This document shows, in pieces, positions 33,374-48,256 of a DNA stretch of 64,000 bases. Position 1 is the stretch's first letter. Every line of letters begins with the position of its first letter. A program made the position numbers and the translations under genes. The notes under the pieces are model-generated. The model was not told the origin of the DNA, searched no databases, and saw only the letters and a list, made by a program, of their open reading frames with translations. The DNA lies in NCBI RefSeq assembly GCF_009557615.1, contig NZ_CP045652.1, positions 3,224,001-3,288,000 of the forward strand, read 5' to 3'. This DNA is from Sphingobacteruim zhuxiongii (GTDB taxonomy: Bacteria; Bacteroidota; Bacteroidia; Sphingobacteriales; Sphingobacteriaceae).

Positions 33374-34687
33374 TTAATCCTCATCATCATCATGCGCGGT
33401 TTCAATCAAATCCAATTTAACGAATTCAATATTTTGCTGCGTTTTCTTCATAATGGTAAAGCAGTAGCCAAGCTCTTCTTTACTATCGCCGACATCTGGA
33501 ATACGTTCGAAAATATGACTAACCAATCCGGCTACCGTATCATAATCTGAACTCTCCGGCAATTCTAACGGTAAATAACCATTTGCATCATGAACACTAG
33601 AGCCCGCGTCAACCATGAATTCTGTTTCAGAAATCTGCTCAACAACTGGTGTTTCCTCATCGTACTCATCTTGAATCTCGCCGACTAACTCTTCCACGAT
33701 ATCCTCCAATGTAACCATACCGGCAGTTCCACCAAACTCATCCAGGACAAAAGCAATTTGAATGCGCTTCTGCTGAAACTCCGTCATCAAATCATTGATC
33801 TTCTTAGTTTCTGGAATAAAGTAAGGCTTACGCATAATATTCTTCAACACGACCTCCTTACCCTTAACTAATAACGGTAATATATCTTTCGTGTGAACGA
33901 CACCAATAATTTGATCGATATTTTCGTCATAAATAGGAATACGCGAGTATCCTTCCTCTGTTACTGTTTCTATAAAAGCGTCAGCAGTTTCGTTTTGCTC
34001 CACTGCAATGATCTTCGTACGAGGAACCATAATGTTCTTAACAATGCGCTCGTTGAAATCAAACACATTCTTAATTAACTCATGTTCCGAGTTATTCAAT
34101 GCACCGCTCTCCTTACCTTTTTCCAAGAGATATTGTAATTCTTCCGATGAGTGACTCGCTTCATGCGTACTTACCTGAACCCCAATCAATCGTAACAAGA
34201 AATTAGCAAATCCGTTTAATAAAAAGATAATCGGTTTGAAAACATAGTAGAAAAATTGCAAAGGTATAGCCACCTTCATGGTTGTTGCAACCGGCTTTTG
34301 TATAGCAATTGATTTCGGTGCTAATTCACCAAAGACAATATGCAAAAAGGTAATTATACTAAAGGCCAGTACATGTCCCAAATTGGTCGCTAATTTACCT
34401 GTAAGTTCGACATTGAACCAACCAAATACCTCATGTACAATTTGCGTCATAACCGCTTCACCGACCCAACCGAGTGCTAAGGAAGCAAGGGTAATCCCTA
34501 ATTGTGTTGCCGCTAAATAACCATCTAGATGATCCGTAATGTTCTTTGCGATCTGTGCGACTTTACTACCGGACTTTGCTTGTAGTTCAATTTGAGAAGC
34601 ACGAACTTTTACAATCGCAAATTCAGCTGCAACGAAAAAACCATTAGCGAGTACTAAAAAAATAGTCCAAAAAATATCAATTGCCAT
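33374..34687 (-). CDS. CNNM/CorC-family membrane protein with CBS domains
   Basis: Inner-membrane protein of 437 residues: a CNNM (DUF21) domain with about four membrane segments (1-190, FWTIFLVLANGFFVAAEFAI), a CBS pair (about 205-335, VPRTKIIAV, YSRIPIYDENIDQIIGVVHT) and a CorC/HlyC C-terminal domain (about 350-430). Relatives (CorC, YtfL, MpfA) take part in magnesium or cobalt export. The ATG lies inside the upstream pyrophosphatase gene (11-nt overlap), suggesting translational coupling. Its place after two Mg-dependent pyrophosphatase genes may be meaningful (inference). Confidence 0.9.
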   Translation of the reverse strand: MAIDIFWTIFLVLANGFFVAAEFAIVKVRASQIELQAKSGSKVAQIAKNITDHLDGYLAATQLGITLASLALGWVGEAVMTQIVHEVFGWFNVELTGKLATNLGHVLAFSIITFLHIVFGELAPKSIAIQKPVATTMKVAIPLQFFYYVFKPIIFLLNGFANFLLRLIGVQVSTHEASHSSEELQYLLEKGKESGALNNSEHELIKNVFDFNERIVKNIMVPRTKIIAVEQNETADAFIETVTEEGYSRIPIYDENIDQIIGVVHTKDILPLLVKGKEVVLKNIMRKPYFIPETKKINDLMTEFQQKRIQIAFVLDEFGGTAGMVTLEDIVEELVGEIQDEYDEETPVVEQISETEFMVDAGSSVHDANGYLPLELPESSDYDTVAGLVSHIFERIPDVGDSKEELGYCFTIMKKTQQNIEFVKLDLIETAHDDDED

Positions 34688-35297
34688 TTGTTAGGTCTTT
34701 ATTTCCGAATTGTGTTTTGTAATGTTCTAAACTCTCTAATATAACACTTTGAGCATCAGATTGTCCAGAAATATTTTCAATTTTTACCGACTTACCGTCG
34801 ATAGATTTATAGGTTTGAAAAAAATGAGAAATTTCCTTCATGATATGGGAAGGAAGATCAGAAAGATCATTGTACTCTTTTAGAATAGCATCCTGATGAG
34901 CTACAGCAATAATCTTATCATCTTGATCTCCAGAATCAAGCATACGCATCACGCCAATAACCCTTGCATCAACGAGTGAATAAGGGGCTAAATCTTGTGA
35001 ACATAATACTAAAATATCTAGGGGATCGCTATCGCCACAGTAGGATTGTGGGATAAAACCATAATTAGTTGGATAGACTACTGAAGCATTCAGCACTCTA
35101 TCCAACTTTAGAAGACCGGAAGTCTTATCAATTTCATATTTCGCTCTAGAACCCTTAGTGATTTCAATGACAGCAGTTACTACTTTCGGAGCTTCTTTGC
35201 CCGGAGAGAGCTGATGCCAAGGATGTTGCTGAGCATTGGCGGAAAAAATCCCGACAAATAGCAACAATGCTATGGTCCAGAGCCTATCGACGTCCAT
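34677..35297 (-). CDS. Inorganic pyrophosphatase with signal peptide (exported paralogue)
   Basis: Family I soluble pyrophosphatase of 206 residues preceded by a Sec signal peptide (MDVDRLWTIALLLFVGIFSA, cleavage near NAQ), so it should hydrolyse pyrophosphate in the periplasm. Active-site residues appear complete: VIEITKGSRAKYEID, LDRV, NYGFIPQ, GDSDPLDIL, and [13 protein letters not shown]. It is by eye roughly 60% identical to the cytoplasmic enzyme encoded 8 nt upstream, from which it probably arose by tandem duplication plus gain of a leader. Its 3' end overlaps the corC-like gene by 11 nt. Exported family I enzymes are unusual in bacteria. Confidence 0.9.
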   Translation of the reverse strand: MDVDRLWTIALLLFVGIFSANAQQHPWHQLSPGKEAPKVVTAVIEITKGSRAKYEIDKTSGLLKLDRVLNASVVYPTNYGFIPQSYCGDSDPLDILVLCSQDLAPYSLVDARVIGVMRMLDSGDQDDKIIAVAHQDAILKEYNDLSDLPSHIMKEISHFFQTYKSIDGKSVKIENISGQSDAQSVILESLEHYKTQFGNKDLTNGN

Positions 35298-35305
35298 ATC
35301 TAAGG

Positions 35306-35848
35306 TTATTTGTTTCGAATTTCTTTGTTGTACAATTCAATACTCTCTAAAATAATGTTTTGAGCGTATGAACGTCCATATAAGTTTTCAATAGATACGT
35401 TTTTATCTTCAAGAGCTTTGTAGTCTTGGAAGAAACGAACGATCTCTTTCATAGTATGCGGAGGAAGTTCTGATAGGTCATTGATGTAATTTACTGACAT
35501 ATCATGTTTTGCTACAGCGATAATCTTATCGTCTTGCTCGCCATTGTCGATCATATGCATAACGCCGATAACTTTAGCTTCGATCAAGCTCATTGGATAA
35601 ACATCCACTGAACATAAAACAAGGATATCTAATGGATCTTTATCATCACAATAGGTTTGTGGAATAAAGCCATAATTTGCAGGATACATTACGGAAGAAA
35701 ATAGGACACGATCCAACTTGATTAATCCACTATCTTTGTCGATTTCGTATTTCGCTTTTGAACCTTTAGGAATTTCGATAATAGCATTCACGGAATTAGG
35801 CAAGTCTTCTCCAGGAGAAACTTGGTGCCAGGGATGTTGTGTACTCAT
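35306..35848 (-). CDS. ppa: Inorganic pyrophosphatase, cytoplasmic
   Basis: Family I soluble pyrophosphatase of 180 residues, which hydrolyses pyrophosphate from biosynthesis to phosphate. No leader. Conserved residues seen: [15 protein letters not shown] (Glu, Lys), LDRV (Arg), ANYGFIPQ (Tyr), DDKDPLDIL (metal-binding Asp residues; Lys replaces the usual small residue) and [13 protein letters not shown] (Asp, Asp, Lys). It lies 6 nt after dedA and 8 nt before the exported copy. The name is safe by family; whether it is the only cytoplasmic enzyme cannot be told from this window. Confidence 0.94.
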
Positions 35849-37779: not shown

Positions 37780-38493
37780 TTATGAAGCCGCTTCTTCTTC
37801 CTCTTCTTCACTGATGAAGCGATACCCCAAACCTCGAACAGTTTGAAGATAATATGGCTTATCGGGATTCGTTTCTATCTTCTTGCGAAGACGAACAACG
37901 TGCATATCTAAAGTCCTGGTATTGACATTGGAGCTATATCCCCAAACAACCTCCATCAACTCTTCACGTGTGATATCTTTACCTTTATTTTGCAGAAAAT
38001 GGAGTAAAATTCTATTCTCCAAAATTGTCAATTCAATTTTCTTACCATCTCGAATCAACGAGTGTACATTCGGATGGTGTTCCGTATCACCGAAATAGTA
38101 AACCTCATTTTGCACCTTCGGCACGAAGAAACGAACCTTATTCTCGATCATAGCAACCAAGACGTCCATATTAAACGGTTTGGTGATATAATCTGTTACT
38201 CCATAGCTGTAAGCGTCAATCTTATCAATATCTTGAGACTTCGCAGTCATCATGATAATAATATTTTCGAAACCCGCTTTGCGGATGCCTTCGCAAACTT
38301 CGATACCTTCTTTCCCAGGCAACATCCAATCCAAAAGAACAATATCTGGTGAGGAGGATAGAATCAGCTTTTCAGCTTCTAATCCGTCGCTACACTGAAT
38401 GACATTATAATTTTCGGTTTGAAGTCTATGGCTTACAAGGAAACGTAAGTTATCATCGTCCTCTACAACTGCAATAGTTATCTCTTTGTTCAT
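37780..38493 (-). CDS. OmpR-family response regulator (RprY-like)
   Basis: A 237-residue response regulator: receiver domain (about 5-120) with phospho-acceptor Asp55 in VLLDWMLPG, acidic pocket VVEDDDN, and Lys105 in YITKPFN; then a winged-helix DNA-binding domain (about 140-230) ending VRGLGYRF. The tail is a run of Glu. The closest named relatives I recognise are RprY of Bacteroides. It follows the histidine kinase gene by 16 nt and ends at a terminator. Its target genes are unknown; autoregulation of the S9-like gene at the head of the operon is possible. Confidence 0.92.
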   Translation of the reverse strand: MNKEITIAVVEDDDNLRFLVSHRLQTENYNVIQCSDGLEAEKLILSSSPDIVLLDWMLPGKEGIEVCEGIRKAGFENIIIMMTAKSQDIDKIDAYSYGVTDYITKPFNMDVLVAMIENKVRFFVPKVQNEVYYFGDTEHHPNVHSLIRDGKKIELTILENRILLHFLQNKGKDITREELMEVVWGYSSNVNTRTLDMHVVRLRKKIETNPDKPYYLQTVRGLGYRFISEEEEEEAAS

Positions 38494-38509
38494 AGTTAAA
38501 TACTAGGGA

Positions 38510-40168
38510 TTATCGTGGAAATATTAACGTAAATACGGTTCCTTCACCTTCAATGCTACTTACTTTAATTTCTCCGCCCATAAATTCAGTAATCTCTTTA
38601 CAAAATGCCAATCCTAATCCTACGCTTCCGCTTTGATTAAACTGGTTTTTTACTCTATAAAATTTCTTAAATATATTTTTAAGTTCATGCTTGTTGATTC
38701 CAATTCCTTGATCGGAAAACTGAATCACAAAATTCTTTTTATTTTGTTCTACACGAATATCAACAAATTTTCTCGAAACTTCGGAATATTTATAGGCATT
38801 ATCAATCAAGTTCTGAAACACCGAATTTAATAAGATGGGATCGGTATATATATTACTGTCCACATCTATTTTCGATGTTAGGTTCAAATCAGGATACTTA
38901 ATCCGTGTTGCCTCAAATATCTCCTCGCAAAAACTGTTCAAATCCACGTATTCTCCCTTAAATTTTAGAGACTTATTTTCTATCTGCGTGAATGACAGCA
39001 ATTTATTCATCAAATTATTTAGCTTATCAGCTTCTTGATCAAGTATCTTACCATACATGTGTCTTTCTTGATCAGATATCTTTTCGGCACTCTTGATGTT
39101 ATTTCCAGCAATCTTAATGACACTCACTGGTGTCTTAAACTCATGAGTCAAGTTGTTGATAAAGTCATACTGTAATTGAAATAAGCGACTATTGATCGCG
39201 ATATTCCGATAAATTAAATAAACTATCAACAACAAAATAGCATACAATAAAGATACGCCTAACACTACGGGAAAGAACTGTCTGTTAATCTCTCCACGCA
39301 AGAACTGTTCCGATGAATCAAATTGCAACTTATATTCTGATAAAGCCCCAGGTAATGCCATCTCGGTACGGATGTAACCCTCTTCTTCCGTTAGGTTGGG
39401 ATCAGCAATCGCAAGAACACTAATCTTCTCGAATAATCGTGGCTGAACGTTCTCAATCTTAATTTTTGCCGGATTTATCTTGTAAACAAATAAATCCTGA
39501 TCGTAAGCAACAGCCGTCGTAATCGTGTCTTCCATTAGTGTTTTATAAGCACGTAAGGTATTTACACGAGGAATGTTGAGATAAGTAACTTTTCCAGGGA
39601 CTGTATTATAAAATATACGATAGATGTCATTTTCCGTTAAAGATGTAGAATCATCTAAGACATCCAGAAAGTTCACCATCTTAATGGCCATATTATTGAA
39701 ATCGTCCGATGTCGGTCGATTCACTGTAGCATCGATTCGATTACGCAGTAATTTATTCTGATTATCAAGTTTAAATGAATAAATAGACTGCGGAAAAATC
39801 AATAAGTTTTGAAACCGAACCCCTCGCGCTGCACTATTTTGATTAGTGAATAGTACGTCATAGAAAACAACTTCATCCACAAAAGCATTCTTTCGTAATA
39901 TCTTTTCCGAATAAGTGACCGCATGCACCGAATCTAAATATCCTTGATAATTCGAAACTTCGGAAATACTATTGTTAAAAAAGTTATTAAAAGGCTTTAG
40001 TGTCGCATCAAATACATCGACCTTTCGATTATAGAATTCAGACTCTACATAGTTCGACATCATGACTCGCGCCAAGAAAACAGCAATAATATAAAGGATT
40101 GTTAAAAAGGCTACGAAGGCTACCAACAAGCCTAAATTCTTCCGGTATTTACTCGTTTTTTTGATCAT
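38510..40168 (-). CDS. Sensor histidine kinase (RprX-like)
   Basis: Inner-membrane kinase of 552 residues: membrane segment at about 12-35, a periplasmic domain of about 265 residues with no family I can name, a second membrane segment (about 300-320), then HisKA with His342 in NNLTHEFKTPVSV and an HATPase domain with NLIDNAYKYS, SDQGIGI, FKKFYRV and GSVGLGLAF. All kinase boxes are intact. It sits 7 nt after the S9-peptidase-like gene and 16 nt before its response regulator gene, so the three are one unit. Its large sensor domain could contact the S9-like lipoprotein in the periplasm (inference). Confidence 0.93.
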   Translation of the reverse strand: MIKKTSKYRKNLGLLVAFVAFLTILYIIAVFLARVMMSNYVESEFYNRKVDVFDATLKPFNNFFNNSISEVSNYQGYLDSVHAVTYSEKILRKNAFVDEVVFYDVLFTNQNSAARGVRFQNLLIFPQSIYSFKLDNQNKLLRNRIDATVNRPTSDDFNNMAIKMVNFLDVLDDSTSLTENDIYRIFYNTVPGKVTYLNIPRVNTLRAYKTLMEDTITTAVAYDQDLFVYKINPAKIKIENVQPRLFEKISVLAIADPNLTEEEGYIRTEMALPGALSEYKLQFDSSEQFLRGEINRQFFPVVLGVSLLYAILLLIVYLIYRNIAINSRLFQLQYDFINNLTHEFKTPVSVIKIAGNNIKSAEKISDQERHMYGKILDQEADKLNNLMNKLLSFTQIENKSLKFKGEYVDLNSFCEEIFEATRIKYPDLNLTSKIDVDSNIYTDPILLNSVFQNLIDNAYKYSEVSRKFVDIRVEQNKKNFVIQFSDQGIGINKHELKNIFKKFYRVKNQFNQSGSVGLGLAFCKEITEFMGGEIKVSSIEGEGTVFTLIFPR

Positions 40169-40175
40169 GCCGAAG

Positions 40176-42059
40176 CTATTTCAAATTCTCAGCTAAAAAC
40201 CGTTCAATCTCTTGGTAGTATTCTACTACATTTTCCTCATTTCTAAATCGCTTTCCTTCATCTTTTTTAAAGATGTAGCGCACTGGGACTTGATTAGATT
40301 TCAATTTACTCACAAATTGATTCGCATCGGTCACCGACGTGTATTTATCTTTACCCCCTTGGAAATACAAGATAGGGATACGTACTTTATCCGCATGAAA
40401 TATCGGAGAGATTGCTTGAAACAATTCAGATTCCTTTTCCGGATTTCCAATAATTCGATAATAAAGCTGAACATAGTGCTTCATATGCGAAGGAATTTCT
40501 CGGAAATAAGTAAATAAATTACTATAGCCCGAAGAAGAAATGGCGCAACGATACAAATTGTTAAAGACCGAAGCATACAATGCCGAGTATCCACCGAATC
40601 CCGCACCCATAATAGCGATACGATCTTTATCTGCAATTCCTTGATGGATTAACCAAGCAACGCCATCGGAGATATCAGATTGAATCTTCCCGCCCCACTC
40701 CTTGAATCCTGCAGTCCAAAACTCCTTCCCATATCCCATCGACCCTCTATAATTGACTTGAAATACAGCATAGCCGCGGTTCGTCAAAAATTGAACTTCC
40801 GAATCAAAGCCCCATTCATTCCTCCGATTAGGGCCGTCATGAACCAGAACAACTACCGGACAATTCTTCCTTCCTGACTTGGGGTAAGTAATAAAGGCAT
40901 GGATGGTTTTGTTATCTCTTGAGAGGTAACTTACCTCCTCCATAGCGTTCAGACTAAGATCTTTCAACTTTGGATTATCTTCAGAAAGCAATTTCAACAC
41001 TTTATTAGATTTGTTGAAATAATATATTTCGCCGGGATGAACATCACTGTAAACGCGAAAAATATAGCCGTTCAACGATGTATCACTATCGAAAAAATCA
41101 ACTTCCATTTCTGGAAACTTAGTCTTTAGATAATCGTATGCTTCTTTGTATGAAGAATTTATAATGGATTTTTTATTTCTATCGACGAAGGAACTTGTAT
41201 AAAGTAGCTCCTGCAAATTGCTGGAGTATCCCTCAATGTTTAGGTCTCCCAGCTTATTTTCATATAATTTCTGCGTTTCATTGCCTTTAGCCGCGTCAAA
41301 CTCAACCATAGCAAGTTTATCGCGTTTATCATTAGAAAGTGCATATATCAACTCTTTTGACCCTTTTTTAAATCCCATCGGAATAAAGGTAGTTTCAAAG
41401 TCGTTTTTCATCACTTCACGGAAAGGTTCTGTTTCAGATGCTCGGTACAAAATAGATTCCTGCACACTATCGCTCGTTAAAGCTAAACGCACAACACCGT
41501 CAGGAGATCCAATCCAATTCACTACATTCCCGGGGTTTGTATAGATAAGCTGATTTGGACGCCCATCAAGATAAACTCGATACAAGTCAAACAGCGAAGA
41601 ATCCCGCTTGTTCATACCTACAACCAAACTCCCATTATTACTACGCAAAGGCCCAATCCACCGTAATTTTACATCATCTGTTTCTACAAGGGGATGTCGC
41701 TCTTCGGTATGAACATTGATCCGAAACAAACGTAAGCTGTCAGTCATGGACTGTGTATTCGAGAAAATAATTTGTTGATCATCCGCCCAAAAGAACCCTT
41801 GAACATTCAGACTAGATTGATAGGTCAGTTGTTTGGAGGAGTCGGGTTGGATTAAATCGAGAACGAAGATGTTCTTACAATGATCATGAACGCCTAAGTA
41901 TGCGATTTTACTTCCGTCTGGAGACAAACGGAAATTATTCTTATCAGGTTTTACAAAGAAGTCTTCTATCGGAATAACCTTATCGCGCTTGCTTTGCGGC
42001 TTGCAGGAACCTGCCAGCATAAAAACACTTACAATAAGAACCAAAAATCTAAAATCCAT
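40176..42059 (-). CDS. S9 prolyl-oligopeptidase-like lipoprotein lacking catalytic Ser and His
   Basis: A 627-residue lipoprotein (leader ending MLAGSC, Cys19) with an N-terminal beta-propeller (about 30-370) and a C-terminal alpha/beta-hydrolase domain of the S9 acylaminoacyl-peptidase type. In active relatives the nucleophile lies in GxSxGG; here the segment is IMGAGFGGYSAL with Gly487 in place of Ser. The acid Asp571 (GGKDKYTSV) is kept, but the catalytic His, normally in DEGH, is Lys603 (KKDEGKRFRNEENV). The frame is intact and the fold motifs are kept, so this looks like a pseudo-enzyme, not a decayed gene. It heads an operon with a histidine kinase and response regulator, suggesting a ligand-binding or signalling role (inference). 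Confidence 0.86.
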   Translation of the reverse strand: MDFRFLVLIVSVFMLAGSCKPQSKRDKVIPIEDFFVKPDKNNFRLSPDGSKIAYLGVHDHCKNIFVLDLIQPDSSKQLTYQSSLNVQGFFWADDQQIIFSNTQSMTDSLRLFRINVHTEERHPLVETDDVKLRWIGPLRSNNGSLVVGMNKRDSSLFDLYRVYLDGRPNQLIYTNPGNVVNWIGSPDGVVRLALTSDSVQESILYRASETEPFREVMKNDFETTFIPMGFKKGSKELIYALSNDKRDKLAMVEFDAAKGNETQKLYENKLGDLNIEGYSSNLQELLYTSSFVDRNKKSIINSSYKEAYDYLKTKFPEMEVDFFDSDTSLNGYIFRVYSDVHPGEIYYFNKSNKVLKLLSEDNPKLKDLSLNAMEEVSYLSRDNKTIHAFITYPKSGRKNCPVVVLVHDGPNRRNEWGFDSEVQFLTNRGYAVFQVNYRGSMGYGKEFWTAGFKEWGGKIQSDISDGVAWLIHQGIADKDRIAIMGAGFGGYSALYASVFNNLYRCAISSSGYSNLFTYFREIPSHMKHYVQLYYRIIGNPEKESELFQAISPIFHADKVRIPILYFQGGKDKYTSVTDANQFVSKLKSNQVPVRYIFKKDEGKRFRNEENVVEYYQEIERFLAENLK

Positions 42060-42143
42060 ATATTAACCAGCCCCTTTTACCAAATATTAGAAAAAAATGT
42101 CGGAAAGTACGTTTTGCAACCTTATTTTTACAGCAGTAAATAA

Positions 42144-46750: not shown

Positions 46751-48256
46751 ATGAAAAACATAAGGACATACAGCATTTTAGCCTCCCTAATCTTAATGAT
46801 TGCCGGGGTTTTTAAAACCAGCGAAGTATCCGCACAAGGATATGATGATGTCACTTTTGATGACTTCTATGATGAACTGGATCCTTATGGTAATTGGGAT
46901 GATGACCCTGAATATGGTAATGTATGGTATCCTGATGTAGAAAGAGACTTCAGACCTTACGGAACCAACGGGTATTGGTCAATGACCGAATATGGAAACA
47001 CATGGGTATCGAGCTACGACTGGGGATGGGCACCATTTCACTACGGTCGCTGGGTACATCGTGGAAACCGTGGATGGGGATGGATTCCAGGCTACGAATG
47101 GGGACCTGGATGGGTAAACTGGAGATCTGGTGGTGGATACTATGGATGGGCTCCAATGTCACCTGGCGTAAGTGTCAATGTGTCATTTAATTTACCAATC
47201 GATTTATGGGTATTTATTCCTACCGCACGTATCTATGATCATTATATGCCTAGATATTGGTCACATGGTTCTAGATACCATAATATTTACAACAGAACGA
47301 CGGTGATTAACAACACGTATATCGTGAACAATAATCGCTATTACAGCGGTCCTTCACGCAGGGATGTTGAGCGAAACATTGGTCGTCGTGTTAATGTAAG
47401 AAATGTACGTTTCGAAAACAATCGCGGTGCAAGTCGCGCAGATAATCGCAATGTATCTATCTTCCGTCCGAATCGTAACAACATGGATCGTGTTAGAAAC
47501 GAACGTGGAAACAACGGTAGAAATTCAAGAGTAGACAATAGAGGTAACTCGCGTTCTGACAACCGTGGTAATGCACGTGTAGACAATAACAGATCATCTC
47601 GTATGGAAGACCGCAGCAATAGTCGCAATGGTCGTGCAAACGAGAGCCGCGTAAATCGTAATGATCGTTCCAACTCTGATTATAAAATCAGAACAAACGA
47701 ACGTGGACAACGCGAGATGCATATCGGCAATAATTCTGGCCGAAACGATCGCTCGACTGTAACAAGACAACCGAACAACGAGTCTCGTCCTGATCGTTCA
47801 GCAGGAAATATCCGCAATGAGAACAGATCAAACAGACAAAGTGAACGTCAGATTCAAAGAGAAAGACCTACTCGTGAAATAGGTAATTCTCAATCGCGTC
47901 AACCTCGTTCATCAGGTCAGGAACGCACTGCATGGGATCGCGGATCTTCATCTTCTAGACCATCTAGATCAGAAGCAACACCGCAACGTATGGAACGTAG
48001 TCCAAGACAATCGGCGCCAAGTTCTCGTGAACAAAGAGCACCACAACAACGTGCCCCTCGCATGGAACAACAACAATCACGTCAACAAAGTCGTGTGTAT
48101 CAAGCGAGCAATAATCAACGCAGTAGTGTTGAAAGACAATCACGTTCATCGTCTGTACAACGTAGTGCACCAAGTGTGAGTCGTCAATCAGGCAACCGCT
48201 CAAATACTGGATCAGCACGTGCTGATCGTGGGAACGGAAGAGGCGGACGCAATTAA
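46751..48256 (+). CDS. Exported DUF6600 protein with long basic disordered tail
   Basis: A 501-residue secreted protein: signal peptide (about 1-29, ending VSAQ), an acidic N-terminal DUF6600-type domain (about 30-185) full of Trp, Tyr and Gly (VWYPDVERDFRPYG, GWAPFHYGRWVHRGNRGWGW), and a tail of about 300 residues made almost only of Arg, Asn, Ser, Gln, Asp and Gly with imperfect RxDNRGN units, which must be disordered and strongly basic. The tail becomes Gln/Ser/Pro-rich near its end. No enzyme motif. It could bind DNA, RNA, teichoic or lipid phosphates, or other polyanions outside the cell (inference). It is monocistronic with a strong terminator. Confidence 0.8.
   Translation: MKNIRTYSILASLILMIAGVFKTSEVSAQGYDDVTFDDFYDELDPYGNWDDDPEYGNVWYPDVERDFRPYGTNGYWSMTEYGNTWVSSYDWGWAPFHYGRWVHRGNRGWGWIPGYEWGPGWVNWRSGGGYYGWAPMSPGVSVNVSFNLPIDLWVFIPTARIYDHYMPRYWSHGSRYHNIYNRTTVINNTYIVNNNRYYSGPSRRDVERNIGRRVNVRNVRFENNRGASRADNRNVSIFRPNRNNMDRVRNERGNNGRNSRVDNRGNSRSDNRGNARVDNNRSSRMEDRSNSRNGRANESRVNRNDRSNSDYKIRTNERGQREMHIGNNSGRNDRSTVTRQPNNESRPDRSAGNIRNENRSNRQSERQIQRERPTREIGNSQSRQPRSSGQERTAWDRGSSSSRPSRSEATPQRMERSPRQSAPSSREQRAPQQRAPRMEQQQSRQQSRVYQASNNQRSSVERQSRSSSVQRSAPSVSRQSGNRSNTGSARADRGNGRGGRN

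Follow-up and report, generated by a model that had tools for sequence, protein, structure and literature searches.

In Escherichia coli, the lipoprotein QseG binds the periplasmic loop of the histidine kinase QseE and activates it (PMC6075780), and in actinobacteria the lipoprotein LpqB has been reported to modulate the kinase MtrB (PMC5487470). Partners of membrane signalling proteins are also found among S9 proteins, as DPP6 and DPP10 serve as ancillary subunits of Kv4 channels; mammalian DPP10, a channel subunit, carries Gly at the position of the nucleophilic Ser, and the fly orthologue of DPP10 fulfils the same partner role and still cuts peptides (PMC4873792). The trio described here, in which an S9-type lipoprotein is encoded together with a histidine kinase and a response regulator, shares with QseG-QseE-QseF a lipoprotein gene located in an operon with kinase and regulator genes, although QseG is not an S9 protein, the gene order differs and the regulator of that system is of the sigma-54 type. 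LpqB-MtrB-MtrA is similar in that a lipoprotein goes together with a regulator of the MtrA type and the kinase belonging to it. The likeness to DPP6/DPP10 lies in an S9 protein turned partner of a membrane signalling protein, with Gly of DPP10 at the very same position; in contrast, DPP6/DPP10 are animal proteins of the DPP4-related S9 branch and assist an ion channel instead of a kinase. Acylaminoacyl peptidase (5L8S) and Dpp5, in turn, resemble the trio lipoprotein in their propeller-hydrolase fold, in the homology of the hydrolase domain and in the catalytic Asp, whereas the lipoprotein of the window possesses neither Ser nor His and is part of a two-component operon. A search of the literature accessible outside subscription journals retrieved neither this trio nor any other S9 pseudo-peptidase in a two-component operon. 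The system represents a new variation on two known themes, two-component systems assisted by a lipoprotein and S9 pseudo-enzymes, and what sets it apart is the recurrence of loss.

Three genes and a putative operator

The window, i.e. the whole stretch of 64,000 nucleotides that was analysed, belongs to Sphingobacterium zhuxiongii (contig NZ_CP045652.1) and carries all three genes on the minus strand. Judged by the open reading frames, the lipoprotein gene (40176..42059, 627 residues) is followed after 7 nt by the kinase gene (38510..40168, 552 residues) and after a further 16 nt by the regulator gene (37780..38493, 237 residues), and the gaps and all coordinates given in the initial annotation are correct. 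The closest named loci are those of S. humi, S. mizutaii and S. cellulitidis. Elsewhere in the window, two adjoining and clearly related inorganic-pyrophosphatase-like genes are found on the minus strand (34677-35297 and 35306-35848); the N-terminus of the first (LLLFVGIFSANAQQ) resembles a signal peptide, which would fit export of this copy. The plus strand encodes a 501-residue exported-looking protein (46751-48256) with a long, low-complexity C-terminal half rich in Arg, Asn, Ser and Gly.

The lipoprotein carries a signal peptide with a lipobox (LAGSC, followed by KPQ), the Cys19 of which (codon 42003..42005, minus strand) is invariant in 25 family members. No acidic surface-export stretch was found after the lipobox, which suggests that this membrane-anchored protein faces the periplasm. 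It consists of an N-terminal β-propeller (residues ~40-360) and an α/β-hydrolase domain (~372-627) and is an S9 homologue, since Peptidase_S9 (PF00326) matches residues 416-627 with 137 bits at a cut-off of 22.6. The AF2 model (pLDDT 90.3, pTM 0.87) displays the propeller-hydrolase fold, and its best PDB match in Foldseek is acylaminoacyl peptidase 5L8S (TM 0.77/0.79, E 2e-38). With 84 vs 900 bits, however, the protein stays far below the cut-off of the Dpp5 equivalog NF053518. LpqB is composed of a GerMN domain and a propeller and is not known to contain a hydrolase; a GerMN-type Pfam match is missing in the lipoprotein of the window. In alignments with 5L8S and other S9 structures, GAGFGG falls on GxSxGG and KKDEGKRF on DEGH, placing Gly487 (codon 40599..40601) at the position of the nucleophilic Ser and Lys603 (codon 40251..40253) at that of the catalytic His, while Asp571 (codon 40347..40349; all minus strand) coincides with the catalytic Asp, the one member of the triad of active S9 peptidases that is present. 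The initial annotation had read these positions and the intact frame in the same way. Seven other strong S9 matches in this genome contain Ser. As an alternative nucleophile, a Ser at position 486 was considered and rejected, since position 486 is A, S, T, N, Y or K within the genus, and no conserved Ser, Cys or Thr was found at or beside the nucleophile elbow.

The second gene product is a HisKA-type sensor kinase, as shown by its HisKA and HATPase_c domains and by an extracytoplasmic domain lying between two membrane segments. Its extracytoplasmic domain (residues ~36-300; 39269..40063, minus strand) is flanked in the AF2 model by helices 6-47 and 287-360, and the earlier description of a large unassigned periplasmic domain is borne out, as these ~265 residues give no Pfam match. 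Assignment of the sensor fold by Foldseek using the full-length model failed, since the matches represent the kinase core; the top match, WalK-YycH model 9a5d, superimposes with 41 Å rmsd and is uninformative on the sensor fold. The third gene product carries Response_reg and Trans_reg_C domains and is an OmpR/PhoB-type regulator. Calling it RprY-like, as had been done initially, is too loose: it obtains 126 bits with the RprY equivalog (cut-off 370) and more with MtrA (194) and PhoB (193), all below cut-off, and membership in RprXY was rejected. RprX-RprY of Bacteroidota resemble the pair in that their regulator, too, is broadly of the OmpR type, but differ in this score and in the kinase sensor domain, which was not found in 239 Bacteroidia genomes outside Sphingobacteriaceae.

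Upstream of the lipoprotein gene, the element TGTAAAAATAAGGTTGCA (42115..42132, minus strand), exact copies of which occur only once in the genome, contains the half sites GTAAA-N6-GTTGC at 11 bp spacing. Throughout Sphingobacterium, TGTAAAAWTAAGGTTGCA is located shortly upstream of the lipoprotein start, and it is identical in genus g27; variants such as GTAAAATTGTWGTKAC occur in deep-branching genera and in g38. The general pattern GTWWW-N6-GTTRC, defined after part of the data had been viewed, precedes the operon in most genera, with 106 of 151 loci compared to 1.0 expected from mononucleotide shuffles, a count to which related genomes contribute non-independently. As regulators of the OmpR/PhoB family bind two half sites 11 bp apart, autoregulation is probable, and the regulator likely controls its own operon via this repeat as putative operator. 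A regulon is not proposed, because a search of the own genome with the element gave 15 matches (one exact) against 19 in the reversed control. No Rfam match was obtained upstream of the lipoprotein gene.

Spread of the trio and repeated loss of catalytic residues

The Sphingobacteriaceae, comprising Sphingobacterium and related genera, are bacteria of soil and water. Among 301 genomes of this family from 25 genera, 296 contain the extracytoplasmic domain of the kinase and 290 the S9 relative, and in 158 of 161 sampled S9 loci from more than 20 genera the kinase gene lies directly downstream on the same strand, with the regulator as third member of the conserved operon. Of the three remaining loci, two hold separate paralogues with Ser and one a broken frame. 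A profile of the extracytoplasmic domain (A3) had no match in 239 Bacteroidia genomes outside the family; it matched 200 of 201 genomes of an order-level sample, which drew members of the Sphingobacteriaceae only and hence adds no further family. Across the entire Sphingobacteriaceae, the trio forms an operon. Since the flanking genes GreA, HIT, DUF4286 and DUF983 are kept in a minority of loci only, the trio itself is the unit. In genus g34 (genomes of ~2 Mb; loci L195-L199), kinase and regulator are retained with no S9 gene beside them, so that the kinase can do without the lipoprotein there. Broken or shortened S9 frames beside an intact kinase were observed in single genomes (L086 in G195, L087 in G233, L106 in G319 and L108 in G166); these few cases, in Sphingobacterium and other genera, represent either true loss or sequencing error. 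Genus g28 harbours a second, Ser-bearing S9 relative without kinase neighbour (L110 in G063, L112 in G087), which lies near the trio family's outgroup; the trio copy of this genus has lost Ser.

Within Sphingobacterium, all 35 aligned copies carry Gly487 and Lys or Arg at position 603. The absence of Ser and His is therefore conserved genus-wide, in every copy read, and is not due to chance or error. Across the family, 154 trio proteins could be divided into 35 with Ser and His, 9 having lost Ser with His kept, 110 lacking both and none lacking His with Ser kept, from which it follows that His was lost only after Ser; the equivalent of Asp571 is present in 153 of them. Hence, relatives in the same gene order with both residues do exist in other genera, but the notion that the copy in the window alone is decayed is false, as its genus and many further lineages lack both. 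In place of Ser, Gly is most frequent, with Arg, Asn or Glu in other cases, and position 603 is occupied across lineages by K, R, T, Y, F, N, D, S or Q. The triad is intact in stand-alone outgroups as well as in the deep-branching lineages g31, g46 and g47, which sets loss as the direction of change, and in the 35 trio proteins with an apparently intact triad catalysis may matter.

On a tree of the S9 proteins built without the three catalytic columns, Ser loss requires 13 changes, at least 11 of which fall on well supported branches. If regain is disallowed, 16 losses of Ser and 11 of His are obtained for a set of 42/9/60/0 proteins in the above order of classes, with 7 outgroup rows included and large genera thinned. 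The kinase's own tree, as an independent frame, gives 14 Ser changes with at least 9 forced, and a single Ser-less clade of one origin was rejected (AU p = 1e-62). These counts are changes in the sample on quick trees and could move by a few; on this basis, Ser is estimated to have been lost at least 9-11 independent times in the trio of the Sphingobacteriaceae.

Pairs of Ser-less genes with unsaturated dS display dN/dS (ω) values of 0.014-0.066, similar to or below the 0.017-0.082 of Ser-bearing pairs; by this measure, purifying selection acts strongly on the genes without Ser. When thinned Ser-bearing and Ser-less groups, divided by position 487 alone, were compared site by site, position 603 turned out to be the most relaxed alignable site after Ser loss (His in 100% vs 20%, entropy 0 vs 3.3), and positions 509, 546, 568, 579, 601 and 605 are relaxed as well. 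At least 95% conservation after Ser loss is seen for Asp571, Tyr443, Arg438, Trp416, Arg413 and the FGG turn. The hydrolase domain surpasses the propeller in conservation in both groups, with entropies of 1.22 and 1.83, respectively, where Ser is lacking, and its good conservation without Ser implies that it is kept for something besides cutting.

Role of the lipoprotein

The initial annotation had proposed a pseudo-peptidase acting as ligand sensor of a kinase. A conserved, functional pseudo-peptidase tied to a kinase is supported by the family-wide operon, the low ω, the repeated Ser loss and the conserved hydrolase domain; ligand binding and the contact between lipoprotein and kinase are inferred. 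Our preferred reading, to which we lean with some reserve, is that the lipoprotein constitutes an S9-derived third component of the two-component system for which catalysis is dispensable. An S9 peptidase would have been recruited as accessory of the kinase-regulator pair before the Sphingobacteriaceae radiated, and the trio would operate as one signalling unit, with the lipoprotein anchored in a membrane and probably facing the periplasm. There, its main job would be non-catalytic, exerted through the surfaces of propeller and hydrolase, possibly with a molecule bound in the old substrate pocket, and it would report to or tune the extracytoplasmic domain of the kinase, be it as a sensor or as a structural or activating partner. 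The kinase would phosphorylate the regulator, and this regulator probably acts on its own operon as well. Since hydrolysis is not required of such a partner, the nucleophile could be lost repeatedly, with His drifting afterwards, and the strictly preserved Ser-less lipoprotein probably now serves the kinase as a non-cutting partner. Distances of S9 and sensor domain add little to this reading, as their partial correlation of 0.60 given the kinase core is hardly above the 0.57 of S9 and core given the sensor, with no clear sign of co-evolution beyond shared history.

A rather unlikely, yet serious alternative is an envelope protein with a non-catalytic job of its own, such as peptide or protein binding or chaperone activity, which would share no more than a transcript with the system, or be one of its outputs, and would not act on the kinase. 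An upstream role is not proven by operon position alone, g34 retains kinase and regulator in the absence of the lipoprotein gene beside them, and the possible operator upstream of its gene makes the lipoprotein probably a target, too. However, this account has to cope with the near-perfect linkage to a kinase with an extracytoplasmic domain just as restricted to the family, a linkage that neighbourhood inertia fails to explain, since GreA and HIT are not conserved neighbours. A tentative special case of the accessory role is a pure ligand or peptide receptor, the emptied pocket of which binds without cutting and switches the kinase in the manner of periplasmic binding proteins. The hydrolase domain, many residues of the pocket region and Asp571 are indeed kept after Ser loss, but the demands of a stable fold or of a surface for a partner would preserve these residues equally well, and the non-triad positions 509, 546, 568 and 579 also relax after Ser loss.

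Continued hydrolysis through another residue or mechanism, to which the retained Asp571 and oxyanion-hole region might point, is very improbable in view of an elbow devoid of conserved Ser, Cys or Thr and of nine different residues at position 603. Decay toward loss of the gene, suggested by the few broken frames in single genomes and by the S9 gene not lying beside the kinase in g34, has next to no credibility, as many Ser-less pairs show the low ω given above and a long open frame is maintained in nearly all of ~290 genomes; general gene decay is refuted by the selection result.

As to the origin of the accessory component, DPP10 and the trio lipoprotein share, by analogy, the order of events, the partner role coming first and the loss of cutting later. 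To our knowledge, DPP6/DPP10 went through far fewer independent losses than the trio lipoprotein, and for a pseudo-enzyme one or two known losses are the usual number. It is conceivable, albeit speculative, that the input protein began as a peptide cutter which sensed and destroyed its substrate and switched many times independently to a binding-only receptor, as a prokaryotic counterpart of DPP6/DPP10. In the Sphingobacteriaceae, a single orthologous gene that stays in a constant operon has lost its nucleophile at least 9-11 times within one bacterial family. Since intact, half-lost and fully lost versions coexist, the need of catalysis in signalling can be tested by natural orthologue swaps, and a testable function is offered for a kinase sensor domain found in nearly all members of the family.
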